From contig NZ_CP109327.1 of NCBI RefSeq assembly GCF_035918155.1, positions 2,666,001-2,730,000 on the forward strand: a stretch of DNA of 64,000 bases. The letters run 5' to 3'. Within the stretch, counting starts at the first letter, position 1. Each line of letters begins with the position of its first letter. The notes beneath the pieces were generated by a model, which ran no database searches, was not told where the DNA came from, and saw only the letters and a program-made list of their open reading frames with translations. Source of the DNA: Streptomyces sp. NBC_01591 (lineage in GTDB: Bacteria > Actinomycetota > Actinomycetes > Streptomycetales > Streptomycetaceae). Positions 30,451 through 50,053 of the stretch are shown one piece after another. The translations under genes were made by a program, and so were the position numbers.

Positions 30451-30477
30451 CCCCTTCCGCAGAAAGGAGGTACTGCC

Positions 30478-31842: not shown

Positions 31843-31856
31843 CCCACCACACCCCA

Positions 31857-31887: not shown

Positions 31888-31917
31888 GCCTCACCCGACC
31901 AGCAGGAAGGTTCCGCC

Positions 31918-33446: not shown

Positions 33447-33482
33447 CGCCGGCCTTTCCTCACCTTCCGAAAGAGCACCCTC

Positions 33483-33935: not shown

Positions 33936-33958
33936 CCTCCCCGTCTGGAGCTACGACC

Positions 33959-35464
33959 ATGTCCCGCCCCCGCGCCAGCGCCTCCCCTCTCTACGTGCCC
34001 CACAAGGCGTCGCGTGCCGAACAGAGGGCCGCCCGAGCCGGTTTCGCCGAGGCCCGCCGTCAGGCCCGGCTCGCCGAAACGCACCCAAAGCACCACGCCG
34101 AGAAGACCCGCGACCCGGAACTCCAGCCGACCTACCCGGTGGCCGGTCGTCCCGGCCCGGCCTCGGCCCGCGGCGGCAAGCTCAACCTGCCCGCCCACCG
34201 GATGACCACCGCCACGGCCAGCGGGGCCTACCCGTTCGTGGCCGAGGGCGGCCTGGGGGCCGAGGGCGTCTTCATCGGCCGTGACGTCCACGCCGAAGCC
34301 GCTTTCTGTTTCGATCCTTTCTCTCTGTACAACAGCGGCCGGATCGAGGGCTTCACGAACCCGAACGTGGTCCTCGCCGGGATCATCGGCATGGGCAAGT
34401 CGGCGCTGGCGAAGTCCATCGCGACCCGGTCGATCGCCCACGGCTACCGCATCTACATTCCCTGCGACCCGAAGGGCGAGTGGACCGGCGTCGCGCAGGC
34501 CCTCGGCGGCTACAGCATCGCGCTCGGCCCCGGCCTCCCGGGCCGGTTGAACCCGCTGGACGCCCCGGCCCGGCCCGCCTCGGTCAGCGAGGACGACTGG
34601 GCGACCGAGGTACGGAAGCGACGCCTTCTGCTGCTGGCTGGCCTGGCGCGCACCGTACTGAAGCGCGATCTGCTGCCGATGGAGCACACCGCCCTGGACC
34701 TCGCCCTCGACCTGGTCGTCGCCGAGGCCGCCGCCCGGGACACGGTGCCGCTACTCGGCGAGATCGCGCACGCCCTCGGCTCTCCCAAACGCCTCGACCA
34801 GGCCCTCGGCCACCAGAGCGGGCAGCTGGGCTCCGCTGCCCAGGACCTCGCGCACGCCCTGCGCCGTTTGGTCCACGGCGACCTCAGCGGCATGTTCGAC
34901 GCTCCCTCGACGGTGGCGTTCGACCCGACCGCGCCGATGCTGTCCATCGACCTCTCCCGCCTCGGCGGCGCCGGAGACGACACCGCGCTGGTCCTTGCCA
35001 TGACCTGCGCGAGCGCGTGGATGGAGTCCGCCCTCGCCGACCCCGACGGCGGACGGCGCTGGGTGATCTACGACGAGGCGTGGCGCCTGATGAGGCACGT
35101 CGGTCTGCTGGAGCGAATGCAGAGCCAGTGGAAGCTGAGCCGTGGGCTCGGCATCGCGAACTTGATGGTGATCCACCGGCTGTCGGACCTGCTCTCGGCG
35201 GGCGATGCCGGCTCGCGCGGCCGGGTGCTGGCCGAAGGCCTCCTGGCCGACTGCTCCACCCGCATCATCTACCGCCAGGAACCCGACCAGCTCGCCGCCG
35301 CCGCGTCGTTGCTCGGCCTGACCGGCGTCGAGACCCAGGCGGTGTCCGCCCTGACCAAGGGCCGGGGCCTGTGGAAGGTCGCGGGCCGCTCCTTCATCAC
35401 GCAGCACATCCTGCACCCGGCGGAACGCGAGCTGTTCGACACCGACGCCCGCATGGCGACATAA
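33959..35464 (+). CDS. VirB4-like conjugation ATPase
   Basis: A 501-residue ATPase that powers the T4SS. Walker A is GIIGMGKSALAKS with Lys147 and Walker B is RWVIYDEAWRLM with Asp372/Glu373. The motif MVIHRLSDL and TRIIYRQEPDQL follow, as in TraC/VirB4 proteins. The N-terminus is basic and lacks TM helices. ATG at 33959 follows CTGGAG. It is complete though shorter than Gram-negative VirB4 (about 800), which is common in Gram-positive systems. Confidence 0.88.
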   Translation: MSRPRASASPLYVPHKASRAEQRAARAGFAEARRQARLAETHPKHHAEKTRDPELQPTYPVAGRPGPASARGGKLNLPAHRMTTATASGAYPFVAEGGLGAEGVFIGRDVHAEAAFCFDPFSLYNSGRIEGFTNPNVVLAGIIGMGKSALAKSIATRSIAHGYRIYIPCDPKGEWTGVAQALGGYSIALGPGLPGRLNPLDAPARPASVSEDDWATEVRKRRLLLLAGLARTVLKRDLLPMEHTALDLALDLVVAEAAARDTVPLLGEIAHALGSPKRLDQALGHQSGQLGSAAQDLAHALRRLVHGDLSGMFDAPSTVAFDPTAPMLSIDLSRLGGAGDDTALVLAMTCASAWMESALADPDGGRRWVIYDEAWRLMRHVGLLERMQSQWKLSRGLGIANLMVIHRLSDLLSAGDAGSRGRVLAEGLLADCSTRIIYRQEPDQLAAAASLLGLTGVETQAVSALTKGRGLWKVAGRSFITQHILHPAERELFDTDARMAT

Positions 35465-35498: not shown

Positions 35499-36179
35499 AT
35501 GTCTACATCTCCCAAGAGCCCGCTCACGACGGCCACCGATCCCCTGGCGTGGCGGCGGCACCTCCCGGCCCTGGCCTCGGCCGCCGCCGGCATCAGGCGG
35601 GCGTCCGACGCCTGGGACGCCATCTCGGACTCCTTCTGCGATCCGGACGGCTGGCCCATCGACGAGAAGGGCTACGCAGACGGCAAGGTGAAACGCGACG
35701 CCGAGGCGTGGAAGCACACCGAGGTATTCCTTGACCACGGCCCCGAGGTGCTGGTCGGCGTCCGCGCCGCCGCCGACGGTACCGACTACGTCGAGGGGCC
35801 GGTCAGCGACGACCTTCGCCGTCTGCGCGGGATCGACACCACGCTGGAACGAGCAGGCCAGATCCGCCACGAATGGGACCACATCTTGGCGCTCATGGAC
35901 GCCTCGCAACCGGGCTCGCGAGAGCTCTACCAGGAGAGCGCGGAGGAGCAGCGCAACTCCGAGGGCTGGCACTACGCAGACGAGCTGTCCTACCAGGGCC
36001 CTGCGCTCGTCCGGGCCGCCGAGTACCTGGCCGACCGGACGGACCTCGAACGGCCCGCGCACACCGACCGGGCACGAGTAGCCCTCGCCCGGTCCGCTCC
36101 CAGCGCCCGCGCCTCCCTGCCCGCTTCGCCTCCTGTCGCCCCGGCGCCAAATCCGCAGGCCCCCGGCCGTGCCCGCTGA
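35499..36179 (+). CDS. ICE accessory protein with Arg-ending tail, 226 aa
   Basis: No recognised family. The body (to about 185) is acidic and Trp/Asp-rich (DSFCDPDGWPIDEKGYADGK; AEEWQ-like repeats). The last 40 residues are Ala/Pro/Ser-rich, start with ARVALARSAPS and end GRAR. This tail type recurs in many ICE proteins. AAGGA precedes the ATG at 35499. Confidence 0.7.
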   Translation: MSTSPKSPLTTATDPLAWRRHLPALASAAAGIRRASDAWDAISDSFCDPDGWPIDEKGYADGKVKRDAEAWKHTEVFLDHGPEVLVGVRAAADGTDYVEGPVSDDLRRLRGIDTTLERAGQIRHEWDHILALMDASQPGSRELYQESAEEQRNSEGWHYADELSYQGPALVRAAEYLADRTDLERPAHTDRARVALARSAPSARASLPASPPVAPAPNPQAPGRAR

Positions 36180-36180
36180 C

Positions 36181-36240
36181 GCTCCTAGCACCGAGTTACG
36201 GCAGCGCCAAACCGGCCGTTCTCCGGACCCTCGTGGCCCA
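36181..36240 (+). repeat. 60-nt intergenic element, copy A
   Basis: One of three related elements (others at 38357 and 44544). Shared core: GCCAAACC, then TTCTCCGGA near the end, and a GCTC-TA start. Copy A fills the gap between two accessory genes. Confidence 0.6.
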
Positions 36241-36312
36241 CCGCACCTCTTCCAGCGCCACGCTCCTGCGGCTCATGCCGTGGGCGCGTGGCGTCCGGCA
36301 ACGGAGAAACCC

Positions 36313-36921
36313 ATGCACCCCGACAACGTCCTCACCACCTTCGCGCGGATCAGTGCGCCGTCTTCCCGGCCTGCGGCTTCCGAACAGGCCCACCGGTACG
36401 CCGCCCTCATCACTGCCCTCCGGCAGCGCGGCCTGGAGTGCACCGTCGAGTACGGCCTCAGCGACTACATCGTCCACGCCGAGCTACCGGACGGCAGCTC
36501 GCTGATCATCTCGCCGCCGCAGGAGCCGTCGTCCGAGCACCCCGAGTCGCCCGAGAGCTGGACGGTGACCCGTCACCGGTCCGCCGAGCCCGCGGTGTAC
36601 GAAGTGGTCTACGACTCCGAGCCCGACGGCCCCGATGCCCGGCACGGCGGCAGCGTCCCGGACCTGCTCACCGCCGTCGACGCGCACCTGGACCGGCTTG
36701 GCGTGCCGCCACGCCCGGAACAGGAACGATCCGTCGAGGAGCGCGCCGCCGACGCGGCGCCGCACCGCGCGGGCTTCGTCCCTGACCCGTCACGGGTGAG
36801 CGCCGCTCTCTCTCCTTCGCCGTCGGCCGGACAGCACGCGGTCCCGGCCGGCCCGCCGACGGCGTCGTCCGCGCACACCGCGCTGCCGCCCGCGCGCCCT
36901 TCGTCCGCCCTCGGGCGCTGA
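36313..36921 (+). CDS. ICE accessory protein with Arg-ending tail, 202 aa
   Basis: No recognised family. The N-terminal 120 residues form a compact alpha/beta unit (AALITALRQRGLECTVEYGLSDYIVHAELPDGSSLIISPP). The C-terminal 60 residues are disordered, with SRVSAALSPSP and an end in ALGR. ATG at 36313 has GGAG upstream; an earlier in-frame start would run through repeat copy A. Confidence 0.65.
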   Translation: MHPDNVLTTFARISAPSSRPAASEQAHRYAALITALRQRGLECTVEYGLSDYIVHAELPDGSSLIISPPQEPSSEHPESPESWTVTRHRSAEPAVYEVVYDSEPDGPDARHGGSVPDLLTAVDAHLDRLGVPPRPEQERSVEERAADAAPHRAGFVPDPSRVSAALSPSPSAGQHAVPAGPPTASSAHTALPPARPSSALGR

Positions 36922-37017
36922 CCCCCGCCGTCTTGGAGTTCTTCGTGTACCGCATCGGCAGAAGCGATCCGTCCCGCGACTACCACTGCGACCGAGCCCA
37001 CCCCGGATGGATCCGCC

Positions 37018-37782
37018 ATGCCCAGCCACTACGACGTACTGCCCGATCTCGCCTTCGGCCACCACCCCGTCCACGGCATCGTTGCCGCGAACCCGAAGAA
37101 CCTCGCCGCGAGCGCGTGGATGCTGAAGCGGTTCGACTTCCACCCCGTTCCCGGCCAGCCGACGCTGTACTCGCTGGCCGACCAGGAACGTGACGGGCAG
37201 GGCCGTACGGCCCGAGCCGTCGAACTGCTGCGCAAGTCCGGCTACCGGGTGGACGTCGACGCCGCGCTCGATCCCTCGCCGGTCCGCGATGCGGCGCCCG
37301 TCCGCGACCGGGTTCCGCTCGGCGAGCCCGATGTCGCGTTCGCCGAGCATCCACGCCTCGGCATCGTCGCGGCCGTCGACAACCGCGTCTCCGGGCTCAC
37401 CGCACTCGCGCTGGCGGAGCACGGCTGGCGGCACAACCCGGGCCTGGACATCTACACGTTGCCCGCCACCACGGGGCGGGACGCGGCGCTGGGGAAGGTC
37501 GCCGACGCCACGCTGACGCTGCACCAATCCGGTGTCCAGGTCGCGGTGCAGCCCCGCCTCGCTCAGGACGTAGCAGTACGCCCGCGCCCTGCTCCCCTAC
37601 CGGCCGCGTCCCGTGAACGCGGCCAGGGCGCCCCGCGTGCGTCTCCGATCAGCGCCGCCGCGCTCGCTGCCAGCCCCGCCCGCGCCGGTTTCCCGGGCAA
37701 GGCGCCGGTCCCCGCGCCCGCCGACCCGGCTGCGGCGTCCCGTCCGGTCGACCCGCGCATCGCGTTCTCCCGCACTCGCTGA
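37018..37782 (+). CDS. Accessory protein with internal domain duplication, 254 aa
   Basis: Two tandem copies of one domain: residues 8-80 (DLAFGHHPVHGIVAA ... LYSLADQERDGQGRTARAVELLRKSGYRVDVD) and 103-180 (DVAFAEHPRLGIVAAVD ... IYTLPATTGRDAALGKVADATLTLHQSGVQVAV). The tail after 190 is Ala/Pro-rich with ISAAALAASPARAG and ends FSRTR. Function is unknown. GGATGGATCC lies before the ATG. Confidence 0.7.
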   Translation: MPSHYDVLPDLAFGHHPVHGIVAANPKNLAASAWMLKRFDFHPVPGQPTLYSLADQERDGQGRTARAVELLRKSGYRVDVDAALDPSPVRDAAPVRDRVPLGEPDVAFAEHPRLGIVAAVDNRVSGLTALALAEHGWRHNPGLDIYTLPATTGRDAALGKVADATLTLHQSGVQVAVQPRLAQDVAVRPRPAPLPAASRERGQGAPRASPISAAALAASPARAGFPGKAPVPAPADPAAASRPVDPRIAFSRTR

Positions 37783-37808
37783 TCCAACTTCCTTAAGGAG
37801 ATTGCCTC

Positions 37809-38306
37809 ATGGCCGTGAAGACCATCTGGTCGATCAACCACACCTGCGGTCACCAGGCCGACCGTGATCTGTCCGACCGGGCGGCCGACCGCCGGGCGGG
37901 CTTCGCCGAGTGGCTCGCCAAGCAGGAGTGCACCGACTGCTGGCGTGCCTCCAAGGATGGTGACGAGCAGGACAAGGCCGCCTGGCTCAAGGCCAAGCGC
38001 GCCGAGGAGCAGGCCGAGTCCGAAGCCTGGTCCGAGCAGTACCGGATGCCCCCTCTGGAGGGGACTGAGCGGGCCGTCGCCTGGGGTGTGCGCTGTCGCC
38101 ACCAGGTCCTGGCCGCCGCCCACACCGCTCTGGTCCTCGAAGGCGCAACCAGCGCGACCGAGTGGGAGGGGATCGAGGACACCGCTCGTACCGTCACCCG
38201 TGCCGGGTGGTGGATCGACCAGCGCTCCTCCGAGCCGGACGACCTCGCCGAGCTGCTCCAGGCCGCCACCGAGGCCGACCGGCCGACCGAGAACCCCTAC
38301 TTCTGA
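37809..38306 (+). CDS. ICE accessory protein with possible zinc finger, 165 aa
   Basis: Unrecognised. The N-terminus has HTCGHQ (residues 11-16) and CTDCW (41-45), a plausible zinc site, followed by a charged helix rich in Glu, Lys and Ala. It lacks the Arg-ending tail. AAGGAG lies eight bases before the ATG. A terminator follows. Confidence 0.65.
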   Translation: MAVKTIWSINHTCGHQADRDLSDRAADRRAGFAEWLAKQECTDCWRASKDGDEQDKAAWLKAKRAEEQAESEAWSEQYRMPPLEGTERAVAWGVRCRHQVLAAAHTALVLEGATSATEWEGIEDTARTVTRAGWWIDQRSSEPDDLAELLQAATEADRPTENPYF

Positions 38307-38312
38307 CCGCCC

Positions 38313-38338
38313 GGGTGCCCCGCTGCGGCGGGGCACCC
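38313..38338 (+). terminator. Hairpin terminator, 11-bp stem
   Basis: GGGTGCCCCGC (38313-38323) pairs with GCGGGGCACCC (38328-38338), 4-nt loop, seven bases after the 165-residue gene. It would end or reduce the first part of the transfer transcript. Confidence 0.8.
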
Positions 38339-38356
38339 GTCTCCTTCCGCGCCGGG

Positions 38357-38417
38357 GCCTCTACCAGCGATCCCCGGCCGGGCCAAACCCCGAATCCGGC
38401 GGATTCTCTCCCTGCCA
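38357..38417 (+). repeat. 60-nt intergenic element, copy C
   Basis: Same element as at 36181 and 44544: GCCTCTACC start, GGGCCAAACCCC centre and GGATTCTCTCC end. It lies just after a terminator and 60 bp before the next start, as a promoter would. Confidence 0.6.
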
Positions 38418-38478
38418 GCCCGAGTACGGCGCCGCGCCGCCGAACTGGGAAATCTGCCCCCATACTCAGGAGGCCCAT

Positions 38479-39219
38479 GTGCCTGCCCCCTCGATCATCA
38501 TCACGTCCGAGTTCAGCGGCAGCGTCGTCGCCAAGGGCGCCACCGACGACCTGTCCGCCCAGCTCCTCAAGCACGCCGGCTTCAAGCAGATCGACGACTG
38601 GCACGGTCGGCGCCATCGCCTGCCCAGCACCATGCCGATCGTCGACCAGGTCGCCATCTCCACCCACGCGGCCGAGATGCTCCGCGCCGCCCGCTACGAC
38701 GTCACTCTGCCGCCCTCCCTGGACACGGCCCGAATGAGCCCCCCGGTGCCTGTCCTCGGGCCCCATCCCGCCGGAGCGGAACTCCTTCAGATCACCGACC
38801 GGATCAAGGCAGCCGAGGACGGGGCCGACCTTCAGCGGGCGGTCGACCACCTCCTTCACCCTAAACACGGCGCCCTGGAGCGCCTCCGAGAAGCACTGGA
38901 GGCTGCAGGCCAGCAGATCTACGACCTCGACGACGAGGCGTACAAACTCGCCGACCGGTTCGACTTCGCCGCAGAGTTCGTCAGCTCGGCACAGGCCGAA
39001 CTCATCAGCTCTGAAGCCGAGTTGCGCCGCGTCGGCACCGCCTCCGAGTCCCGCACCGAGGAACCAACGCGGTCCTCGGCGGTACCCAACCATCGGGGCG
39101 CCGCGCTGGCCACGTCGCCCGCAGCGGCCAAGGCCAAGGTCTCCTCGGCGCCCGGCTTCGAAACGGCGCCATCCAACGCGACCGTGCACCCGTCGCGTGT
39201 CTCGGGCCCCCGGCGGTGA
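38479..39219 (+). CDS. ICE accessory protein with Arg-ending tail, 246 aa
   Basis: Unrecognised. The first 80 residues look like a small DNA- or protein-binding fold (SEFSGSVVAKGATDDLSAQLLKHAGFKQ). Residues 95-175 are helical. The tail has HRGAALATSPAA and ends SGPRR. GTG at 38479 has AGGAGG five bases upstream; the ATG two bases earlier is in another frame. Confidence 0.7.
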   Translation: MPAPSIIITSEFSGSVVAKGATDDLSAQLLKHAGFKQIDDWHGRRHRLPSTMPIVDQVAISTHAAEMLRAARYDVTLPPSLDTARMSPPVPVLGPHPAGAELLQITDRIKAAEDGADLQRAVDHLLHPKHGALERLREALEAAGQQIYDLDDEAYKLADRFDFAAEFVSSAQAELISSEAELRRVGTASESRTEEPTRSSAVPNHRGAALATSPAAAKAKVSSAPGFETAPSNATVHPSRVSGPRR

Positions 39220-39276
39220 CCCAGGCCGTCTTCGCCCTTTTCCCGGCCGCCTGGGACAACCTCTGAGGAGGGCTGC

Positions 39277-39435
39277 GTGCCTGAGTACTACTCCAGCATC
39301 GGCGAGGCCGTCGGTGCCGCGATGCAGCACAACATCCGGCTCGCCCACCGCGGTGTGGCGCCCGGCTCCGACGAGCCGCTGCAGGTCCGGCACCTGCCCA
39401 GTGCTTCCGACGCCCGTACTCCGTCCTCGGGATGA
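39277..39435 (+). CDS. Small ORF, 52 aa, coupled to next gene
   Basis: GTG at 39277 with GAGGAGG upstream opens a frame MPEYYSSIGEAVGAAMQHNIR... that ends at TGA 39433-39435, overlapping the ATG at 39432. The ribosome site and ATGA overlap support a real gene. No family is recognised. Confidence 0.6.
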   Translation: MPEYYSSIGEAVGAAMQHNIRLAHRGVAPGSDEPLQVRHLPSASDARTPSSG

Positions 39436-39971
39436 TCGCCTGTCTCGCCGAGGACGCATCGCCCGCCGAAGTCGCGGAAATTCTGGAGGGGGTCAACGGT
39501 GCGCTGGTCGGCGCGCTGCCTCAGCTGACCGAACTCGTCGCCGCTGCGGCTGACTGGACCCGTGTCCGCCTGTCATTCGACGACCCGCACCACAACCCCG
39601 CCTTCGAGACCTGGACACGGCTGGCCGCCGCCCTCGGGATGCTTCAGGACGTCCGGGAACAGTTGGAGGTCGCCGAGGACGGGTTCGCCGCATGTCCTGC
39701 CGAACGGACCGATCCCCGGTTGCACGAGATGGTCAACGTTCTGCGGACCCGGGAACTGCTCGACGACGTCCTCGGCGCGGGCCCGGTCGCCGCAGCGCCT
39801 TCCGCCCCAGATCCGGGCTTCGTCGGCGAGGTCGTCGATCCCGAAAGCCGGCGTCTGGCCGCCGCCCGCCAGGTCTCGCCGGTCACGACCACCGCCGGCA
39901 TTGCCACCAGCACCGCATCGCCCGCCGCGCCGTCACCTCCTGCCGCCCGCCCCGTCACCCGCCTCCGCTGA
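39432..39971 (+). CDS. ICE accessory protein with Arg-ending tail, 179 aa
   Basis: A helical protein (IACLAEDASPAEVAEILEGVNGAL..., FETWTRLAAALGMLQDVREQL) whose last 40 residues are Ser/Thr/Ala/Pro-rich and end ARPVTRLR. ATGA overlap with the 52-residue ORF couples them. Function is unknown. Confidence 0.7.
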   Translation: MIACLAEDASPAEVAEILEGVNGALVGALPQLTELVAAAADWTRVRLSFDDPHHNPAFETWTRLAAALGMLQDVREQLEVAEDGFAACPAERTDPRLHEMVNVLRTRELLDDVLGAGPVAAAPSAPDPGFVGEVVDPESRRLAAARQVSPVTTTAGIATSTASPAAPSPPAARPVTRLR

Positions 39972-40003
39972 ACCTTTCTCTTCGATCCTCAAGGAGTGAG
40001 CCC

Positions 40004-41852
40004 GTGAACTGCACGAGAGCCGAGCGTGCCCCGCCCCCCGCCCGCTCGCACCGCCAAGGAACCACCTTGCCCTCCCCGCGCACCAGCGCGCCCTCGACCA
40101 CCACCAGGTCGGACGCGCTCCTCTTCTTCCTGATCGGCGCCGTCGGAGCCGCCCTCGCCTTCGCCTCCCTCGCCTGGCTGACCGGCAACCTCACCAACTC
40201 CCTGGTCGGCAGCGGTCCGTGGACCCCGCTCCGCGCCGACGCCCTGCTGCACCCCGAGGTGCTGTGGCCGGCCCTGAGCAGCACCGCGCTGCTGGTCGGC
40301 ACCCGCATCATCCCCGGCCTGCTCACCCTGACCCTGCTCACCACCGGCCTGGTGTTGTGGATGCGCTGGCGCTCCGGTGCGAAGTCCGGCCTGGCCCGCA
40401 AAAGCGACGTGGCGTCGCTGCTGGACAAGGAGATCACCACCAAGGCGAAGAGCCTGCGGCCGTCCCTGAGCGGCCGGGAGGGTAAAAGAGGTCGCTCCCT
40501 CCGACCGCGGCATCCTGCTCGGCACCCTCGACCCCGGGCGTGCCGATGTCCGCGCGTCCTGGGAGGACGTGATCGTCGCGATCATGGCCCCACGTTCCGG
40601 CAAAACGTCCGGTCTGGCGATCCCCGCGATCCTCTCGGCGCCCGGCCCGGTCCTGCTGACCAGTAACAAGGCCGCGAACGACGCGTTCACCGCCACCGTG
40701 GACGCCCGCGCCGGCGTCGGCACGGTCTGGACCCTCGATCCCCAGCAGATCGCTCACCATCCGCGCGAGATGTGGTGGGACATCCTGGCCGACGCCCGCG
40801 ATCTGGCCGGCGCGAAGCGGCTCGCCGGGCACTTCGTGGCCGCGAGCGTGGACGAGTCCAGCGGCTCCGACTTCTGGTCGACCGCTGCGTCCAACACGCT
40901 CGGCGCCCTGTTCCTGGCCGCCGCCAGCCACCGGCGGCCAGTCACCGACGTCCTGGCCTGGCTCGCGATGCCGGCCGACCGGACCCCGGTGGACCTGCTC
41001 ACCGACGCGGGCCATCACGCGGTCGCCGCCCAGCTCCAGGGCACCGTCTCCGGCGCGACCGAGACCCGCGACGGCATCTACGAGACCGCGAGGCAGTACG
41101 CGAGTTGCCTGCTCGACCCGGACGTCGCCGCGTGGGTCACGCCGAACGAGGACCTCCCCGAGTTCAAGCCCTTCGCGTTCGCCACTTCCCGCGACACGCT
41201 GTACCTGCTCAGCAAGGACGGCGGCGGCAGCGCGAGCGCGATCATCGCGGCGGCGGCCGACGCCGTGATGCGCGCGGCCGTCGTCGTCGCGGAGCGCTCC
41301 GGCGGACGGCTCGACCCGCCCGCCCTGTGCGTCCTCGACGAGGCCGCCAACGTATGCAAAATCTCCGACCTCCCCGACCTGTACAGCCATTTGGGCAGCC
41401 GGGGCGTCATCCCGATGACGATCTTGCAGTCCTACCGGCAGGGGCAGCGGTGCTGGGGCGAGGCCGGGATGGACGCCCTGTGGTCCGCAGCCACCGTCAA
41501 GATCATCGGGTCGGGTATCGATGACGCCGACTTCGCCGACCGTCTCAGCAGGCAGGTCGGTGACCACGACGTCCAGACCACCTCGGTGTCGACCAGCGAA
41601 GGCGGCAAGTCCACCTCGGTGAGCATGCGCACCGAGCGGATCCTGCCGCCCGACGCGATCCGTGCTCTGCCCAAGGGCAAGGCGCTGCTGCTGGCCACCG
41701 GCATCCGGGTCGCCATGCTCAACCTGAAGCCCTGGTACAAGGAGCCCGCTGCCAAGGTCGTCGGGCCCGCCTCCGCCCGTGCCACGAAGGCCATCACCGA
41801 GCGGGCCCTCGCGAAGAACATCGGCCACGACGACTTCGGGCTGTCGGCATGA
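40004..41852 (+). pseudogene. VirD4/TraG-like coupling protein, frameshifted
   Basis: The T4SS coupling protein is split between two frames. The first part (GTG 40004, AAGGAG upstream) has two TM helices (LLFFLIGAVGAALAFASLAWL; LLTLTLLTTGLVLWM) and runs to about 40,480. The ATPase part (Walker A PRSGKTSG, Walker B LCVLDEAANV, SYRQGQRCWG) is in the +1 frame. The switch is at AAAA 40484-40487; removing one A would restore a 615-residue protein. It may be a true mutation, a sequencing error or a programmed shift. An alternative start for the ATPase part is 40569. Confidence 0.8.
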
Positions 41853-42079
41853 GTGCGCCCACGTCGCGTCCCCGGCCCCTGGCCCACGCGCCGGTCGTTC
41901 TGCGCGACGGCCAGTGGTGGCTGGTCGGCAGGGCCGGCTCGATTCCCGCTTCTGATTCCGCCTTCACTACCGTCCTGGACGACTTCGCCCAGGCTATGGC
42001 CGCTGCCGACCGGGCAGTCGCCTGCCTCGTCATCCGGCAGAGCGGGTCCTCCGCACCTGATCCGGGAGACCGTCGATGA
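41849..42079 (+). CDS. Small protein, 76 aa, coupled to coupling-protein gene
   Basis: ATGA overlaps with both the upstream and downstream genes. The protein has a short beta-rich start (VVLRDGQWWLVGRAGSIPASD) and a helix (VLDDFAQAMAAADRAVACLVI). Family unknown. Confidence 0.65.
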   Translation: MSAPTSRPRPLAHAPVVLRDGQWWLVGRAGSIPASDSAFTTVLDDFAQAMAAADRAVACLVIRQSGSSAPDPGDRR

Positions 42080-43248
42080 ACCCGCTGCTGCGCGCCGAGC
42101 AGGCGGTCCTCGGCGCGGTGCTGATCGACCCGGGCCAGCTCACACGCCTGGACTGGCTCGCGCCGGATCACTTCTACCGGCCCGTCCACCAGGCGCTGTT
42201 CGGCGCGCTCCGCACGCTCCGAGACGACGGCCACTCCGCGCTCTCGGACGACGGTCCGGTACCGCTGTCGTGGGTGAACAACGCGGTCGACGAGGCCGGC
42301 CTCCACGTCCGGGGGCTGACCACGTCGTACGCCCACACCCTGATCTCGGCCTGCCCTCGCTTCGAACACGCTCCGGTGTACGGCCGCATGGTCCTGGAGG
42401 GGGCGATCCACCGCACCATCGCCCAGCACGCGATCCGCCTTCACCAGGCGGCTCGGGCCGACGCCGTCCAGGGCGAGGTCGAGGGAGCGCTGCGCACAGC
42501 GGACGTCCTGACAGGAGTGCTCACCGATCTCGCGCGCCGCTGGGGAACCGATCCACGCCCGGTCGCGCCCACCACTGCACCCGCCGCCGTGACCACCGTC
42601 TCGCCGCCGGTCCAGTCCGACCAGGTCGCCGAGGACGAGCGGTTCCTCCTTGCCGTCCTCACCGAGCAGCCGAGGGCCATGGATGAAGTGGTGGACTGGC
42701 TGCGGCCGGTCGACTTCGCCGACCCGGCCCACGGGCAGGTCTACCGGTGCCTGGGCGCGCTGCATCATCGGGGCGAGCCCATCGACCGGATCACCCTGCT
42801 CTGGGAGGCCCAGCGGCGCGGTCTCCTGGCCGACGGCACCCTGTCGGGCGAGCAACTGATCGCCATCGGCGACGGCATGCTCCCCGGCAGCGCCGAATGG
42901 TTCGGGCACCGGGTGATGCGCTCCTCCCTCACCCGCACCGCAGCCGCCTCCGCACGCGCCGTCCGGGCCCTGGCCGAGGACGAGGCCCTGGGACCCGGCC
43001 GGCTGATCAACCACGCCCTGCACGCCCTCGGCCCGCTCGACGAGGTGCGTGCCCGCTGGGCGACCGCGAAGGGCAGTCCGGCTCCGAAGCCGACGGCCTC
43101 CGCTCCATCGGCGGGCGGACCGCCTCCGGCCCGGGTGCAGGCCGCTCGCGCCCGCAGCGCTCCTCGGCCGACTCCGTCGCCTCCGGTCCAGCCCAGTCCC
43201 GTGCCCGCAGCGGCCCCTTCCCGGCCGCCCTCGCGCGCCCGCCCCTGA
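42076..43248 (+). CDS. DnaB N-terminal-domain protein without helicase core, 390 aa
   Basis: Two copies of the DnaB helicase N-terminal domain: residues 1-60 (LLRAEQAVLGAVLIDPGQL...DHFYRPVHQALFGAL) and about 180-290 (EDERFLLAVLTEQPRAMDEVVDWLRPVDFADPAHGQVYRCL). No RecA-type ATPase follows; instead a Pro/Ala-rich tail with ARVQAARARSAP ends SRARP. It may bind host primase or helicase to aid ICE DNA processing. ATG overlaps the preceding stop. Confidence 0.78.
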   Translation: MNPLLRAEQAVLGAVLIDPGQLTRLDWLAPDHFYRPVHQALFGALRTLRDDGHSALSDDGPVPLSWVNNAVDEAGLHVRGLTTSYAHTLISACPRFEHAPVYGRMVLEGAIHRTIAQHAIRLHQAARADAVQGEVEGALRTADVLTGVLTDLARRWGTDPRPVAPTTAPAAVTTVSPPVQSDQVAEDERFLLAVLTEQPRAMDEVVDWLRPVDFADPAHGQVYRCLGALHHRGEPIDRITLLWEAQRRGLLADGTLSGEQLIAIGDGMLPGSAEWFGHRVMRSSLTRTAAASARAVRALAEDEALGPGRLINHALHALGPLDEVRARWATAKGSPAPKPTASAPSAGGPPPARVQAARARSAPRPTPSPPVQPSPVPAAAPSRPPSRARP

Positions 43249-43297
43249 CACCGTTTACCGCCCAGCCCATCTCCCCGTACCTTCCTTGGACTTCGCC

Positions 43298-44542
43298 TTG
43301 ATCGACTCCCTTTCCTCCGACGCTCTGGCCCTGCGCAGCGGCGACCTGCGCGCCGCCTCCGCGGGTCCTCCGCTGATCGGGTCGCTCTGCTCCGGGTACG
43401 GCGGCCTCGACCTGGGCGTGCAGTCCGCCCTCGGCGGCACCCTGGCCTGGCACGCGGAGGTCGATCCGAACGCCTCGCGCATCCTGGCCCGCCACTGGCC
43501 GGGCGTCCCCAACCTGGGCGACATCACTGCCGTCGACTGGTCCCCCGTCCCCCGGGTGTGCGTCCTGACTGCGGGCTTCCCCTGTCAAAGACGTCTCGGT
43601 CGCCGGCCGCCGGGCCGGACTCAACGCCCAGACCCGCTCCGGGCTCTGGCTGCACGTCGCCCGTGCGGTCGAGGCCCTCCGACCCTGCCTGGTTGTGATC
43701 GAGAATGTGCGCGGCCTCCTCACCTCCCCCGCCGGTTCCCCTGGCGACGTGGAACCCTGCCCGTGGTGTCTGGGAGACACCCCAGGTCAGCCTCCTTTGC
43801 GGGCACTCGGTGCCGTACTCGGATCCCTGGCCGACCTCCGGTACGACGCGAAGTGGATCGTGCTTCGTGCCTCCGACGTCGGGGCCCCGCACCGCCGCGA
43901 GCGGACCTTCCTCGCCGCCTGGCCCGCCGGAGACCCTGCTCAAGACGCCGACCAGCAACATCGGCAAGAACGGCGGCTCCCAGCACCCCGCGAAGCGGAA
44001 GAGCGGCGGGCACGGTCCGAATCTGGCCGACGAGGTCGAGTGGCTGCTGCCAACCCCGAAGGCATCGGACGGGATCAAAGGCTCGCCCAACCAGCGGCAC
44101 GGCAATGGCGACATGACCCTGCCCAGCGCAGCGGCGTCGCTGCTGCCCACACTCAGGACCAGCGACACGGGCGCACCGGGCCGTCGCCCCGGGAAGGGGT
44201 GGCGTCCTCACGTGTCGGCGGTAGTCCTGCCGCTCTGGACGCAGGAGTCGCCGGAGGCCGAGGACCGGACCGGCGGTGGGGAGCGTACGCAGCCGCTATC
44301 ACCCGATGGGAGATGCTCACCCGTCCCGCGCCGGACCCCACGGACGCGGGCGGGCGGCTCCGGGCCGACTTCGTCGAGTGGATGCAGGGCCTGGACTCCG
44401 GCTGGGTCACCGCCACCCCGGGGCTCGGACGGCCGGCGCAGCTCACCGCGCTCGGCAACGGCGTCGTACCCCAACAGGCGGCGCGCGCCGTCAGTTGCTG
44501 GCACCGCCCTTCCCGCGCTGCTCGCATTGCGCGGGCGGGTAG
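43298..44542 (+). pseudogene. Second cytosine-5 DNA methyltransferase, broken by several frameshifts
   Basis: Pieces of a C5 methylase occur in successive frames: motif I SLCSGYGGLDLGVQ and motif IV GFPCQ (frame of TTG 43298), then DVSVAGRRAGL...VVIENVRGLL and APHRRERTFLAAWP after a shift at CAAAG (43586-43590), then TLLKTPTSNIGKNGGSQHP after a shift near 43,925, back again near 44,270 (AAITRWE, LTALGNGVVPQQAA) and a last change near 44,500 (PRCSHCAGG, stop 44540-44542). At least three shifts are needed, so it is probably inactive unless the sequence has errors. Confidence 0.8.
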
Positions 44543-44543
44543 C

Positions 44544-44604
44544 GCTCTACTACCGGGTTTTCCCGGCCCGGCCAAACCGCGGTTTCTCCGGATCCTCTCG
44601 GGCA
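44544..44604 (+). repeat. 60-nt intergenic element, copy B
   Basis: Third copy of the element at 36181 and 38357: GCTCTACTACC start, GGCCAAACCGC centre, TTTCTCCGGATCC end. It lies directly after the broken methylase and 31 bp before the DUF4913 start. Confidence 0.6.
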
Positions 44605-44635
44605 TGTCGCCGTCTCACAGATGGAGCACGCCCCC

Positions 44636-45247
44636 ATGCCCGACACCAGCCCGACCTCCCCCGCCCCCGAGCCGTTCCGCGTCCCGGAGGGGAACCTCGA
44701 CGACCTCGCCAGCACCCTCGCCAAGACCATGGCCGAGGTCAGGCAGCACGGCGTCATCCTCGACCGCCTCGGCTCCGAACCCGAACCCACGCCCGATCCG
44801 ACTGACCACCAGCAGGAAGACGGCGCTTCGGCAGCCGAGGCGGCCGATACCAAGCAGGCCGACGGCCCCGCCTCGGTGTTCATCGTCGCCCTGGGCGGCA
44901 AGGCGTACGCCGCCGAACTCACCGCCCTCAGCAACTGGGTGCACCACCTCTTTCTCCCGGTCTACGGCCGGGAGATCAGTACCAACCGCCCGTGGTGTGC
45001 GCAGTGGCACGAGCACCCCGAGGCCGTCGCCCGGCTCCACGCTCTCTGGCTCGCGTGGCAGCAGTTCACCGACACGGAGGCCGGTCTGTCCGGTCCCTCG
45101 ACGTGGCACCGCGACCACCTGGACCAGGCGCTGGTACACCTGCGCGCCCCCGACGGGCCCTTCGCGGCGTGCACGACAAGCGCAACCCGGCCCAACCACC
45201 GCTTGCTGGCCGCCCCGGCGCCCGAGCAGTCGCAGGTGGCGGCGTGA
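44636..45247 (+). CDS. DUF4913 protein
   Basis: A 203-residue protein. Residues 80-190 match DUF4913 of actinobacterial plasmids and ICEs (LSNWVHHLFLPVYGREI, WCAQWHEHPEAVARLHALWLAW, WHRDHLDQALVHL). Its function is unknown but it is tied to conjugation modules. ATG at 44636 has GGAG nine bases upstream. The stop overlaps the next GTG. Confidence 0.8.
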   Translation: MPDTSPTSPAPEPFRVPEGNLDDLASTLAKTMAEVRQHGVILDRLGSEPEPTPDPTDHQQEDGASAAEAADTKQADGPASVFIVALGGKAYAAELTALSNWVHHLFLPVYGREISTNRPWCAQWHEHPEAVARLHALWLAWQQFTDTEAGLSGPSTWHRDHLDQALVHLRAPDGPFAACTTSATRPNHRLLAAPAPEQSQVAA

Positions 45248-46041
45248 ACGACGACCTCGACTTCGCCTTCGATTTTGACCTCGACAAGCTCGCGCCCGCG
45301 GATGCCTCCTCCGAGGAGGAGGAGCCGGACGGGCTCTGGCCCGGTGACCTGAAGGTCCTGCCCCAGCACCATTCCGCTCCCAACCGCTCGCACAGCTTCG
45401 TCCTCGCCCACGACCAGTCGGCCACGTGGGGGATACCCAGCACGCCGCAACTCGTCGCAATCGTGGTCGCGCGGGATCTCAGCCTTTCCACGTTCACTCT
45501 GGAGACGAGCCACCACGCCACGGCATCCTTCGCCCAGAACTGGCTCGTCGAACGCGGCTGCCCGCCCGAGCAAATCGGCGTGGCCGGCAGCGACTACCCC
45601 AAACCTGACGACGACCTCACTCTCCAGGTGGAACAGCAGATCCGGGAGTCCGGCACTCGCTACGAAGTCCTCGACACCCACACCTCGGACCATGACCCGA
45701 GCGAGACCTGGGTGCTGACCCGCGACTCCAGTGCGAGTCAGGCACCGATTCGCGTCTTCCACGAAGAGTGGAACCATGACGCCGGCACATACACGATGCG
45801 TGAGGGCGCCTTCGCCGACATGGGTGCCGCAGACTCCTGGCTAAACGACCGCAGCGGCCCGCTGCCGGAACCGCCGGAGTACAGCAGCCGCAACGGCGCC
45901 GTCCTGCGTGCCCGCATCGCCCGTACCGCCCTCGCCCGGTCGGCCGCCGCGTCCACGACGCCGAAGTCCGGCCTCGACGCCACCCGCACGCCGCCGACGG
46001 CGGGGGCGGTCCAGCGTCCGGGGCAGGAGAGGCTGCTGTGA
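45244..46041 (+). CDS. ICE accessory protein with tail motif, 265 aa
   Basis: Unrecognised. It is acidic at the N-terminus (DDLDFAFDFDLDKL) and then alpha/beta with two related blocks (PNRSHSFVLAHDQSATW; SETWVLTRDSSASQ). The C-terminus has ARIARTALARSAA and ends GQERLL. GTGA overlaps on both sides tie it to its neighbours. Confidence 0.7.
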   Translation: MNDDLDFAFDFDLDKLAPADASSEEEEPDGLWPGDLKVLPQHHSAPNRSHSFVLAHDQSATWGIPSTPQLVAIVVARDLSLSTFTLETSHHATASFAQNWLVERGCPPEQIGVAGSDYPKPDDDLTLQVEQQIRESGTRYEVLDTHTSDHDPSETWVLTRDSSASQAPIRVFHEEWNHDAGTYTMREGAFADMGAADSWLNDRSGPLPEPPEYSSRNGAVLRARIARTALARSAAASTTPKSGLDATRTPPTAGAVQRPGQERLL

Positions 46042-46514
46042 GCCGCGCCCGCTTCGCGTTCGCCGCGCACCCCGACGCCATCGCCGACCTGCGTGAACTT
46101 CCCGACGAGGTCCGGGACTTGGCGCTGCTGGAACTGCAGAACCTGGTCCACGGAAGTGACGACTGCCTGCCGTTGAAGGGCCGCCTCGCCGGCTTCCACA
46201 AGGTCTACGTCGACCCTTCCGTCGCCTACCGGATGGTCATCCAGTTCCGCCCCGCCCCACCGACCTCGACCCACAAACACGAGGTCTATCTCGTCGCCGC
46301 CGGAAGCCGGAAGGACTACGCGGTCTACCGCTCGGCCCACCTGCGCACCGGCCCCCAGCAGGACACCAAGACGGCCTCCGCCACCGAGGCCCGCGTACGC
46401 GCCGCCCGGTCCCGCTCCTCCCTCACCACCGGTCGCCCGACGGCCTCCCCCACAGCTCCACCCACAGCGGCCCACTCCACGGGTGCCGCTTCCCGAAAGG
46501 CCCCCCAGCGATGA
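46038..46514 (+). CDS. RelE/ParE-like protein with Arg-ending tail, 158 aa
   Basis: Residues 1-95 have the RelE/ParE plan: FAFAAHPDAIADLRELPDEVRDLALLEL, LKGRLAGFHKVYVDP, YRMVIQF and EVYLVAAGSRKDYAVYRSA. No antitoxin gene is adjacent; both neighbours are larger ICE proteins joined by GTGA/ATGA overlaps. The tail has ARVRAARSRSS and ends APQR. A catalytically inert or delivered toxin-like protein is possible. Confidence 0.65.
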   Translation: MSRARFAFAAHPDAIADLRELPDEVRDLALLELQNLVHGSDDCLPLKGRLAGFHKVYVDPSVAYRMVIQFRPAPPTSTHKHEVYLVAAGSRKDYAVYRSAHLRTGPQQDTKTASATEARVRAARSRSSLTTGRPTASPTAPPTAAHSTGAASRKAPQR

Positions 46515-47167
46515 CCGCCGACCGCACTCCACTGTCCCGTACCGACCTGGCTGGCCTCCTCACCGAGGCCGCGCAGAGCGTCTCCGCCATCCTCACCGCC
46601 GAATACCCGACGGCCCCCAGCCGCTCCTACCTGCACCCCGTCCTGGGCATGCTCGCAGCCGGACCCCGGGTGGTCGGCGAACTGAACGACCGCCTCGAAG
46701 AGTTCGTGGCCGCCGAGCCGCGACCCACCACCCCGGCGGGCCTATTCACCCTGGCCTCCTACGCCGCCACCCTGGGCTGGCTCACCGAGTCCCTCGCCGA
46801 GCTGACCACCGCAGTCGACCGGATCTGCACCCGCGCAGGCATCCCCACCGAGCCCCGCGATCCGGCCGTCACCACGCCCGACGACAACGAGTTCGACTTC
46901 TCGTTCAACGCGCTGGAGCTCGCGGCGATCCGTACCGCGGCCGAGGCCGCCGGCCTCGCGCCGGACGACTACGTCGCGGTCCTCGCCGAGTCACTGCTCG
47001 CCGCCTCCCGGGTCACCGACGCCTGCATCGAGATCTCCAGCAGCCTGCTCGAAGACGCCGTGTATGTCCTCGACGAGGCCACCGACCACATCTCGGCCGG
47101 CGACGGCCCCGGCAGTCTGCCCACCCTGGTCCGCTCCCTCCTCGCCCGGATGGAGGCGGCGGAGTGA
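46511..47167 (+). CDS. ICE accessory protein, 218 aa
   Basis: Mostly helical, with no recognised family (LLTEAAQSVSAILTAEY..., RIRTAAEAAGLAPDDYVAVL). It lacks the tail motif. ATGA with the RelE-like gene and GTGA with the next gene show strong translational coupling. Confidence 0.65.
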   Translation: MTADRTPLSRTDLAGLLTEAAQSVSAILTAEYPTAPSRSYLHPVLGMLAAGPRVVGELNDRLEEFVAAEPRPTTPAGLFTLASYAATLGWLTESLAELTTAVDRICTRAGIPTEPRDPAVTTPDDNEFDFSFNALELAAIRTAAEAAGLAPDDYVAVLAESLLAASRVTDACIEISSSLLEDAVYVLDEATDHISAGDGPGSLPTLVRSLLARMEAAE

Positions 47168-47997
47168 ACCCCCACAACGCGAACCGGTACCCCGGTACAC
47201 GCCTCGTCGCCGAGAAGCTCGGCGTCTCACAACCCAGCACGCTCCGCGTCACGTACCGCCCTGGCGAGCCGCAGTACGACGCTGCGACACAGGTGATCAA
47301 GGCCGCGTACGAGCTTGACGAGCTGCACGGCCGAGTGCAGCGCGCGGCCCAGGCCACGCGCGACGCACTCACCCCCGTCGCGCAAGGCAAGTTCGACGCA
47401 TCGCGCTCGCCCATCTCGCTCTTCTCGCTTCGGGCCGAACTCCGGCACGTCGACCACCTCGTCTCGAAGCAGAACGAGACGTACGAACGTCTTTACGAAT
47501 CTATCTCCGCGTACCGCCGTCTTGTGCCTGCGGCAAACGTGATTCGCCATTCGAATACGGCAGCCCACGAGCTGCACCAGGAACAGAATTCCGGTCGGGA
47601 CGACGACTGGGCTGTCGCGGGTGATCGCAGGCTCAGGGCACTCGAAGCCGTCGAGGCCGGCGGCGTCCGGTTCCGCCTCACGGGGATCGGCGACGACCCC
47701 TACGTGGTGTGGGAGAAGGCCCAGCGGCAGGACCCGGCGATCTGGCCCCGGACCGTGCAACGGCTGGTCGCCGACGGGCTGCTGCACCACGACACCAGCG
47801 AGAGCCTCTACCGGCCCGGACAACTTCTCTCGCTCACGCCGCAGGGTGAAGCCTCCCTTCTCGCAGCGCGTGCGGCAACGCCACGGGTGTCTGCCGCGCT
47901 CGACCGCAGCCGCACCTCCACACCCCACGGCCCCCTCGCCGACTCGGCCGTCCGGCCCGTTACCGCGTCGGTCGGCAAGCCCTCGCGTTCCCGCTGA
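47164..47997 (+). CDS. ICE accessory protein with winged-helix-like part and Arg tail, 277 aa
   Basis: A helical N-terminus is followed, after about residue 180, by a segment like a winged helix (PRTVQRLVADGLLHHDTSESLYRPGQLLSLTPQGEASLLAAR). The last 40 residues include PRVSAALDRSR and end KPSRSR. It may be a DNA-binding regulator; the winged-helix call is tentative. Confidence 0.6.
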   Translation: MNPHNANRYPGTRLVAEKLGVSQPSTLRVTYRPGEPQYDAATQVIKAAYELDELHGRVQRAAQATRDALTPVAQGKFDASRSPISLFSLRAELRHVDHLVSKQNETYERLYESISAYRRLVPAANVIRHSNTAAHELHQEQNSGRDDDWAVAGDRRLRALEAVEAGGVRFRLTGIGDDPYVVWEKAQRQDPAIWPRTVQRLVADGLLHHDTSESLYRPGQLLSLTPQGEASLLAARAATPRVSAALDRSRTSTPHGPLADSAVRPVTASVGKPSRSR

Positions 47998-48021
47998 CTC
48001 CTTCCGAAGAAAGGGCATTTC

Positions 48022-48864
48022 ATGTCCGCCCCCGTACAGCCTCCCGTCTTCTCCATCGGCTCGGTCGATGCTCAGCGTGTCGAGGGCGCGCTGTCTCTGC
48101 TGGAGCCGAGGTGGACCACCTGGACGGCGATGATTCTGGCCCAGGGGAACCGCCCCATGCGCGTTTACGACGTCGCCGCCCAACTCCCCTTCATCAGCGA
48201 GCAATTCGTCGGCAAGAGGCTGGCCACGATGCGCACCGCCGGGCTGGTCACCCGGGAGGATGCCCGTCGCGGGGCTCCGTACCGGCTCAGCATGCTTGGC
48301 GAGTCCCTGCATCCCGTGCATCGCACCGTGTCGGACTGGTCCCACGCCTATCTGCCGCTGGGCCGGATGCCCGAAGCCGAACGCGTCGAGGACGCCCTGA
48401 GCCGTCTGCATCTTCGGCATTCGACCGCCGTGATCCAGGTCCTCGACGAAGGCGGTCCGATGCGGCTCGGCCACATCGCCGAGAGGGCCGACCTCGGCAA
48501 CCAGTTCGCTCGGGTGCGGCTCGTCCGGCTCCAAGCCGACGGACTGGTTACCCGCACGGGGCCGCGCCACGGCGACCCTTACATACTGACCGACGCCGGT
48601 CAGGCGCTGGGAGCCGTGTACGCGAGCGTCGAGCACTGGAGCAACCCTCTCACCGAGCGGCGGACCTCGCCTGCGCCGCGCCCCATCCCGGCTGCCACAC
48701 GCACCCACACCGGTGTCCCGCTGGAGGTGGACGGCGCCCGTACGGCTGCAGCTCTTCGCCGCAGCGCTGTCGCGCCGACTTCGCTGTTCAGCCATGCTCC
48801 GCAGCCGCAACCGCGAGTGCCGGCGGCCGTGACCGCCCAGTCGGCCCCGGGCCGGTCCCGGTGA
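48022..48864 (+). CDS. Tandem HxlR-like winged-helix regulator with Arg tail, 280 aa
   Basis: Two winged-helix units in tandem: residues 15-105 (RWTTWTAMILAQGNRPMRVYDVAAQLPFISEQFVGKRLATMRTAGLV) and 118-205 (HSTAVIQVLDEGGPMRLGHIAERADL...RLVRLQADGLV). Both resemble HxlR-type domains, usually single and dimeric. The tail has ARTAAALRRSAVAP and ends GRSR. AAAGGG precedes the ATG at 48022. Confidence 0.75.
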   Translation: MSAPVQPPVFSIGSVDAQRVEGALSLLEPRWTTWTAMILAQGNRPMRVYDVAAQLPFISEQFVGKRLATMRTAGLVTREDARRGAPYRLSMLGESLHPVHRTVSDWSHAYLPLGRMPEAERVEDALSRLHLRHSTAVIQVLDEGGPMRLGHIAERADLGNQFARVRLVRLQADGLVTRTGPRHGDPYILTDAGQALGAVYASVEHWSNPLTERRTSPAPRPIPAATRTHTGVPLEVDGARTAAALRRSAVAPTSLFSHAPQPQPRVPAAVTAQSAPGRSR

Positions 48865-48980
48865 CCCGCGTGGGGAGAACCAGAGCCGCCCCTCCGCCAC
48901 GGCGTCCGCGTGCGCACCAGCCGCTCGCCCGACTGCGCACGCGGGCGCGTTCCCCACCCACACGCCCCGGAGCCTCGATC

Positions 48981-49928
48981 ATGCCCACCCCTGATGACGC
49001 GCACCTCTACGAGGAGGTGCTGGTCAGCCCCATGTACCTGGCCGGCTCCAACGGGACCGGAGACGCCGGTTTCGCCCCCGTCGCTCACTGGCCGCACCAC
49101 TACCTCGACGAGGGCCCCTGCCAGCTCGTCGTCACCTCGCCCGACCAGCGGATTCGAATCGGCTGGTTCGGCGACGACTTCGAACTGTGGAAGATCACCG
49201 CAGCCACGGATGCGGTTGCCACGCCCCGCTGGACGGCCACCTTCAACCACGTCACCCCGGCCGAGATCGTCGCCGGCCTCACCACTGCGCTGGCCCACGA
49301 CTACGCCGAGGCCGACGCGTACGACGGCAACGGCTGCTTCCTGGCCAACCCGTCGTATCGCTGGGCCGACGCCGTCCGACCACTGACCGATGCTGGCTGG
49401 ACGCTCGACGGCGGCGCCCAGCGTGACACCGTCGAGATCGTCGCCCCCGACGGACAGGCGGGCGTCCTGATCGACAACCGCCTCTCCGGCTGGGACGACG
49501 AGACCGTCACACTCTGGGCCGGTCCACCAGGCTGGAGCACACGGGCGGAGGCGGTGTTCACCGAACGCACCCCGTCCCACCTGATCGCCGCGACCGCGGC
49601 CGTGATGGCGGATTCGGCCCCGGTGATCCGTGAACGGCACCAGATCGACCGGCGGATGGAGCACCTGGTCACGCTGTCCCCGGTCGCCCCAGCCGCCGAG
49701 ACCTCCGAGACCTTGGGCTCCCGCGCTCCGACTCCGCTCGACGTGCGCCGTACGGCGGTCACCCAGGCCGTCCACCGCGCCACGCGCGCCCCGCGCACCG
49801 CAGCCGACCTCCGGGTGATGGCAGCCCAGAGCCGCACCACGGACGCGGTACACGGCCGGCCGAGCACCTTCGCTCCCGCCTCAGCCACACCGCCGATCAG
49901 CGCGTCGGCTCCGCGACGCAGCCGCTGA
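48981..49928 (+). CDS. DUF317 protein with Arg-ending tail, 315 aa
   Basis: Two DUF317 units typical of Streptomyces plasmids: residues 10-105 (VSPMYLAGSNGTG ... TSPDQRIRIGWFGDDFELWKI) and 125-215 (AGWTLDGGAQRDTVEIVAPDGQAGVLIDN). The C-terminal 75 residues are basic and Ala/Pro-rich and end PRRSR. The molecular role is unknown. ATG at 48981 has GGAG nine bases upstream. Confidence 0.75.
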   Translation: MPTPDDAHLYEEVLVSPMYLAGSNGTGDAGFAPVAHWPHHYLDEGPCQLVVTSPDQRIRIGWFGDDFELWKITAATDAVATPRWTATFNHVTPAEIVAGLTTALAHDYAEADAYDGNGCFLANPSYRWADAVRPLTDAGWTLDGGAQRDTVEIVAPDGQAGVLIDNRLSGWDDETVTLWAGPPGWSTRAEAVFTERTPSHLIAATAAVMADSAPVIRERHQIDRRMEHLVTLSPVAPAAETSETLGSRAPTPLDVRRTAVTQAVHRATRAPRTAADLRVMAAQSRTTDAVHGRPSTFAPASATPPISASAPRRSR

Positions 49929-50053
49929 TCCCCAGGCCGCCGTCGCCCGCTCCGGGCACATACCGCACACCGCGGGCCAAGTGCCCGCCCCGCCGACTCC
50001 TTCGGCCGGGGCCGGACCGTCAGCGCCTGCCTCGGCGCCACGACGCTGAGCAG

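Follow-up and report, generated by a model that had tools for sequence, protein, structure and literature searches.

In this article, I will discuss a 64,000-nucleotide stretch of the 10.25-Mb genome of Streptomyces sp. NBC_01591 (called the window throughout), which covers most of one conjugative element with a type IV secretion system (T4SS), and within it eleven proteins whose similar C-terminal tails are, as I will argue, probably secretion signals. All eleven are encoded on the + strand and were recovered (11/11) when the tailed-gene set was re-derived with an independent codon-usage gene caller. Bodies of unknown kind are found in tailed protein 1 (226 amino acids (aa), 35499..36179, tail at about 36069-36179, RARVALARSAP...GRAR), which is R-ending in 11 of 12 aligned homologues, protein 2 (t36921; 202 aa, 36313..36921, tail ~36793-36921, RVSAALSPSP...ALGR), protein 3 (254 aa, 37018..37782, tail ~37645-37782, PISAAALAASP...SRTR), protein 4 (t39219; 246 aa, 38479..39219, tail ~39094-39219, RGAALATSP...GPRR), protein 5 (179 aa, 39432..39971, tail ~39849-39971, RRLAAARQVSP...TRLR) and protein 7 (t46041; 265 aa, 45244..46041, tail ~45910-46041, ARIARTALARSA...ERLL). 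Tailed protein 6 (t43248; 390 aa, 42076..43248, tail ~43129-43248, ARVQAARARSAP...RARP) has a DnaB helicase N-terminal domain (Pfam DnaB 3.4e-29), and protein 8 (158 aa, 46038..46514, tail ~46389-46514, ARVRAARSRSS...APQR) is RelE-like, the best PDB match to a profile of 16 homologues being a RelE at a weak E=0.08 and another RelE standing at 0.73; an NCBIfam search gave no match for its family. A possible helix-turn-helix (Pfam HTH_50, below cut-off) is seen in protein 9 (277 aa, 47164..47997, tail ~47881-47997, PRVSAALDRSR...SRSR) and a double HxlR-like helix-turn-helix (Pfam HxlR 2.8e-15) in protein 10 (280 aa, 48022..48864, tail ~48736-48864, ARTAAALRRSA...GRSR), and protein 11 (315 aa, 48981..49928, tail ~49809-49928, LRVMAAQSRTT...RRSR) is a DUF317/SPDY protein (Pfam SPDY 4.9e-19, in two stretches).

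The original prediction had listed these eleven stops and quoted the motifs before them, and all 11 stops and tails are present, far above chance. It had also called the bodies different, which stands insofar as no two are related by BLAST (best pair E=0.031), but looser chaining through homologues in other elements connects several of them, so that "unrelated" here means without direct pairwise similarity. The tail is made up of a core like R-x-x-A-A-x-x-R-S/T, starting some 36-45 residues before the C terminus, followed by a linker rich in A, P, S and T and by terminal arginines; in all eleven it lies at the extreme C terminus, is short and is net positive, as for C-terminal T4SS signals, with a charge of +2 to +7 over the last 45 residues (mean -0.01, standard deviation 3.5, in the 321 control genes described below). 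R is the last residue in 9/11, in keeping with the claim that the tails mostly end in R-x-R or R, the exceptions being t43248 (RARP) and t46041 (ERLL), and a strict R-end tail rule passes 8/11. A tail profile trained without the window places nine of the eleven above 3 bits and six above 6 bits (18.9 bits for tailed protein 6), with t36921 and t39219, whose cores fit weakly, below 3 bits and t46041 scoring best in a register that differs from the motif itself; no other called window gene of at least 60 aa scores above 3 bits.

For comparison, 60 loci of up to 20 kb each were fetched around homologous coupling-protein (VirD4) genes at 50-96% identity, 13 of these genomes also supplied 20 control loci, and genes under 90 or 100 aa or with a low coding score were dropped before counting. 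Unseeded motif discovery on 326 non-redundant tails from 26 loci with a 71-86% identical VirD4, with the window left out and per-sequence backgrounds, gave x-R-A-x-A-A-[RLT]-A-R-[ST] as the top motif in 76/326 tails, starting at a median of 40 residues before the C terminus (quartiles 37.75-42) and reaching a log-likelihood of 221.8 as against 85.8-97.9 in five shuffled sets at equal effort; the same motif was thus recovered from homologous elements. A simple distance-fixed pattern matched 6/27 in the window element (mean of 20 shuffles 0.25), 46/235 in the near loci (3.6), 67/508 in the middle loci (7.95), 8/76 in plasmids (1.0) and 2/316 in controls (1.95). R-ended A/P-rich tails were carried by 323/835 non-core genes (window element 8/18, near 66/186, middle 224/457), compared with none of 284 T4SS core genes and none of 321 control genes, where core genes were defined by BLAST and the non-core set takes in any host genes inside the loci. 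One could argue that such ends are a general feature of Streptomyces, whose high-GC genes would yield A/P/R-rich disordered ends and whose mobile genes have poorly constrained termini, and indeed 28/321 control genes have an A/P-rich end and 52/321 have R last. However, not one of the 28 carries two R among its final five residues, the T4SS core genes alongside the tailed genes stand at 0/284, the motif is position-locked and kept while its flanks drift, and Micrococcales plasmids follow the same logic in other letters; contradicted by shuffles and controls, this explanation has very little chance of being right. A purely compositional artefact was excluded by the shuffled tails and control loci.

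The internal motif is the best-conserved part of the tail, on a par with the bodies, while its flanks drift, and the original prediction, which had noticed the short motif, underrated it. Among orthologues of the eleven proteins from 13 near loci (12 orthologues compared for tailed protein 3), with poorly aligned rows kept in, identity to the window was 0.685 for the motif, 0.659 for the body, 0.418 for the preceding 15 residues and 0.404 for the linker, the terminal Arg being retained in 0.693 of comparisons; in the RelE-like protein, the tail residues R119, A123, R126, S127 and R153 are invariant across 16 homologues. This bears on whether the tails multiplied when gene ends within the element were recently duplicated or recombined, and have no selected function, as might be supposed from neighbouring genes with similar tails and from an orphan tail remnant (RSGHIP...SAPRR, 49948..50046, + strand, by tblastn), which has no body found in the window and has relatives with a body in L032, L036 and L037. 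The window tails lack extended DNA similarity, however, their matches to one another being numerous but short and GC-rich (best E=0.001 over 44 nucleotides), and do not look like recent DNA copies, an origin that is disfavoured; since the motif is moreover kept across orthologues, the chance that duplication accounts for the tails is close to negligible.

Furthermore, the tails track the coupling protein. In the VirD4 tree they occur in most loci, and one supported clade (L062-L070) has R-ended tails mostly without the internal core; a de novo motif search in that clade found no internal motif of the AARARS kind. On non-core genes the motif was present in 162/491 for L032-L061 plus the window vs 12/170 for L062-L070, while R-ended tails numbered 216/491 and 82/170, respectively, and within the seven body families represented by two or more members on either side, the motif stood at 44/110 vs 8/64 in L062-L070 (p=0.0001), a clade singled out after its tails were seen; because the motif differs by VirD4 clade within the same body families, tails go with the element more than with the family of the protein. 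Similarly, DUF317 proteins were tailed in 12/13 cases with VirD4 in the fetched locus, in 5/10 cases farther along the same contigs (in one of these five, L161, the rule is passed by an end that does not resemble a tail) and in 3/14 cases where no VirD4 match lay within 300 kb or on the contig (12/13 vs 3/14, p=0.0003), the comparison covering the 37 genes read and leaving out other DUF317 matches outside the fetched loci. The original prediction would have fallen had such tails been equally common outside T4SS elements, and neither the 20 chromosomal loci nor the DUF317 proteins show this, even with three of 14 tailed.

Similar tails also occur on relaxases, a primase and toxins. A Pfam scan of 92 tailed proteins found relaxases (4), Zeta toxins (2), a VbhT-type Fic, a DnaG-type primase, a cytosine methylase, DnaB-N and DUF317, the matches listed covering 25 of 39 families, and the DnaG-type primase of a Micromonospora plasmid has a tail-like basic end, GPRRA. 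Of 54 relaxases read, 7 of at most 400 aa were dropped, and R is last in 43 of the 47 kept; among the other four, L203 ends at the contig end and L208 runs into other sequence. Relaxases of the window type, judged by eye, mostly lack the internal core, and in L225 (Actinacidiphila) the relaxase has RATAARART where the core usually lies; when the end of this relaxase was used for a DNA search, nothing in plasmids matched. The tag of Micrococcales plasmids takes the form [AS]S[YF]P...G-x-x-R, and a two-part tag scan gave 12 matches, one of them an unannotated open reading frame, in 6/15 records (at most 0.05 expected per record by shuffling) and none in the other nine. A Curtobacterium D26b plasmid carries the S[YF]P...G-x-x-R tail on five proteins (shuffling gives an expectation of 0.0), namely Fic, AbiEii, the product of the gene that follows the relaxase and two proteins of unknown kind, while the relaxase has a GAER end alone; in Rathayibacter both AxSFPT and a GGL[DG]R end are common to relaxase and Zeta; and in Gulosibacter, where the coupling protein is annotated CD1115-type, the Fic and relaxase tails are alike by eye, in the form of a different tail. 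When 16 plasmid toxins and 14 antitoxin-position genes, hand-picked from search matches, were compared, a G..R end was found in 12/16 toxins vs 1/14 antitoxin-position genes, the motif in 9/16 vs 0/14 and R as last residue in 13/16 vs 5/14, with a mean net charge over the last 50 residues of +3.9 vs -5.5. By eye, the MobC, SSB and ArdC proteins read have no such tails. In the window, an untailed gene with no Pfam match at E<=0.1 (46511..47167, + strand) overlaps the RelE-like gene by 4 bp, an arrangement that parallels the toxin/antitoxin pairs elsewhere and would make it a candidate partner or antitoxin of the RelE-like protein. Two further arrangements were seen in passing: a Fic gene beside a VbhA-type antitoxin gene recurs in Micrococcales conjugative plasmids, mostly near the relaxase (L114, L173-L176, L179, L239), and R-rich tails end two further proteins present in some elements, an AAA_5 (MoxR-like) ATPase and one that weakly matches the VWA domain (L039:2201-3406 and L062:16053-17852).

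These distributions also help to judge two explanations that do not involve export. If the tails served to tether proteins to the relaxosome or the coupling protein within the donor, they would track the VirD4 clade equally well, and some bodies are DNA-binding regulators (HxlR), but the Fic, Zeta and AbiEii toxins are tailed and genes in antitoxin position largely are not, which delivery fits better, and the tails are by eye missing from the MobC, SSB and ArdC proteins read and sit on many different bodies, so docking without export seems unlikely. Basic C termini are also able to bind DNA, and the tails could then serve to bind DNA, to target the nucleoid or to attach to some other partner unconnected with secretion; such a role would explain poorly the difference between toxins and antitoxins, the tails of relaxases and primase and the correlation with VirD4 type, and I consider it highly improbable.

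Specificity for T4SS elements, absence from the parts of the machine, conservation, the match to VirD4 clade and the sharing of tails by relaxases, primase and toxins instead argue for a T4SS export signal, and I regard it as probable, with good though not full confidence, that the tails are C-terminal type IV secretion signals that would route proteins of the element through VirD4 into the recipient. The computational tests thus support the export-signal interpretation of the original prediction, and delivery into the recipient is what they would imply. Several points weigh against it. The controls are chromosomal stretches rather than other mobile elements such as those of TraB type, and the R-end rule was drafted after the tails had been seen, if before the control tails were scored; the regular expressions for the Curtobacterium and toxin scans were likewise composed after inspection of tails. 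The simple pattern is at or near chance in the group with 62-66% VirD4 identity (0/112, 0.65 expected) and in the 50-52% group (2/123, 0.7), and R-ended tails become scarcer with more distant VirD4 (8/78 at 62-66%, 13/37 in plasmids and 4/59 at 50-52%). The R-ended tails of L062-L070, mostly without a core, indicate that the core is not always needed, three DUF317 proteins are tailed with no VirD4 match nearby, and the relaxase of the window does end in PSRPLRR, as was claimed, but lacks the internal core. Lastly, 7/16 toxins lack the motif by regular expression and 3/16 are not R-ending, whereas 5/14 antitoxin-position genes are, and Nocardia L115 and Arthrobacter L119 have no clear tails.

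The remainder of the element is that of an integrative and conjugative element (ICE), with integrase, relaxase, VirD4, a VirB4-like ATPase and flanking att repeats. The element is inserted at rnpB, the RNase P RNA gene (Rfam RF00010, 295.6 bits), and spans about 70.8 kb, since a 36-bp direct repeat (att) at 12588..12623 (no strand assigned) has its right copy at the 3' end of this gene, at about 83400-83435 in window numbering (L235 ~3500-3535); no tail was found on any gene called between 61.7 and 93.9 kb. Next to the left repeat is the integrase (12710-13963, - strand), and the untailed T4SS core (28234..35464, + strand) encodes NlpC/P60, small membrane proteins, TrbL/VirB6-like and SCO6880/EccE-like proteins and a VirB4-like ATPase, with Pfam matches for NLPC_P60 and EccE, a TrbL match below cut-off, and the ATPase assigned from its P-loop and position alone, with no specific Pfam match. 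The VirD4/TraG-type coupling protein (40569..41852, + strand; Pfam TraG-D_C 4.9e-35, T4SS-DNA_transf 1.6e-22) has no tail, and it is matched at E<=1e-20 in 147/297 sampled genomes of the family. Its membrane part (~40004-40666), just upstream, and its ATPase part (40470-41852) lie in different frames, and among the matches listed at 87% identity or more, 29/41 have an open frame of 455-524 aa and 12/41 one of at least 613 aa; because the split recurs in relatives, a mere sequencing error is unlikely, a split gene or programmed frame change is a possible explanation, and self-transfer of the element is not certain. An untailed DUF4913 protein (44621..45247, + strand; Pfam 1.7e-29) lies 2.8 kb from VirD4 in the window and directly adjoins it in 11/15 fetched plasmid records. 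The MOBP-type relaxase (59969..61741, - strand; Pfam Relaxase 1.1e-7) reaches its PSRPLRR end after a disordered run, and the named loci that carry a related relaxase number 54, with 51 in Streptomyces, 2 in Actinacidiphila and 1 in Kitasatospora. A cytosine-5 DNA methyltransferase gene (~43304-44620) is split over frames and is called in pieces in several related elements too, and the opposite strand inside the element carries, at 53166-57953, the gene of an untailed 1595-aa protein in which YD-type repeats can be seen by eye, followed by a small gene. Among the fetched loci, L071-L078 are T4SS-like, with a 62-66% identical VirD4, few tailed neighbours (8/78) and no motif, and possibly represent a resident chromosomal relative of the T4SS.

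How might such a tail work? The core, perhaps as a helix, would be recognised together with the flexible linker and terminal arginines by the element's own VirD4, alone or with a partner such as DUF4913, an adaptor guessed from synteny, and the tailed protein would then pass through the mating channel into the recipient together with the relaxase-bound DNA strand. Both the binding to VirD4 and the delivery I infer from sequence. The eleven window proteins would accordingly be candidate conjugation effectors, spanning regulators, a RelE-like protein, a helicase-N protein, a DUF317 protein and unknowns, which may help the incoming element to establish itself. With more reserve, although I still lean towards it, each VirD4 clade of the actinobacterial SCO6880-type elements may read its own tag (AARARS...RxR in many Streptomyces, S[YF]P...GxxR in Micrococcales and AFP...R in Micromonospora), so that a large effector set, with toxins but without their antitoxins, would be delivered with the DNA, and one third to one half of the cargo genes near VirD4 would be tagged in the nearest Streptomyces elements.

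The Agrobacterium VirB/VirD4 substrates VirE2 and VirF have Arg-rich C termini with the pattern R-x7-R-x-R-x-R, and the likeness to an Arg-rich VirB/D4-type signal drawn by the original prediction holds for a short, positive C-terminal signal with arginines near the end; however, that pattern is found in 0/11 window proteins within the last 60 residues, and what is conserved here is a core rich in A that lies inside the tail, some 40 residues before the C terminus. A closer parallel is plasmid pVbh of Bartonella, in which, according to Harms et al. (PMC5675462), the toxin VbhT, of a Fic/VbhA pair, and the relaxase TraA have a common C-terminal signal and are both translocated by a conjugative T4SS. 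The difference is that the BID domain of that system is alphaproteobacterial (Pfam scans of the eleven proteins at E<=0.1 gave no BID), while here a tail of about 40 residues is found on many proteins at once in an actinobacterial SCO6880-type system. That paper calls short basic signals notoriously difficult to predict and expects further such toxins. Likewise, the F-type plasmid pED208 is reported to translocate 16 plasmid-encoded proteins besides the relaxase, some with C-terminal signals, and thus resembles an element delivering many of its own proteins, but its signals are C-terminal or internal and substrate-specific, and no common tail motif is mentioned in the available part of the text (PMC11288057); Sog, named there too, is a conjugative primase with which the Micromonospora primase and its GPRRA end may be comparable, in a different system. 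A 2025 T4SS review (PMC12857230), in its accessible part, treats Streptomyces for TraB-type transfer only, and the literature searched, with most subscription papers outside coverage, contained no account of such tails from the T4SS elements of actinobacteria.

With a tag that can be read from sequence, hundreds of actinobacterial genes that lack annotation would become effectors open to testing, and the tag itself could be used for protein delivery between Streptomyces or Arthrobacter cells. In addition, it suggests why these elements carry so many DUF317, regulator and toxin genes: their products may act in the next cell rather than in the present one.

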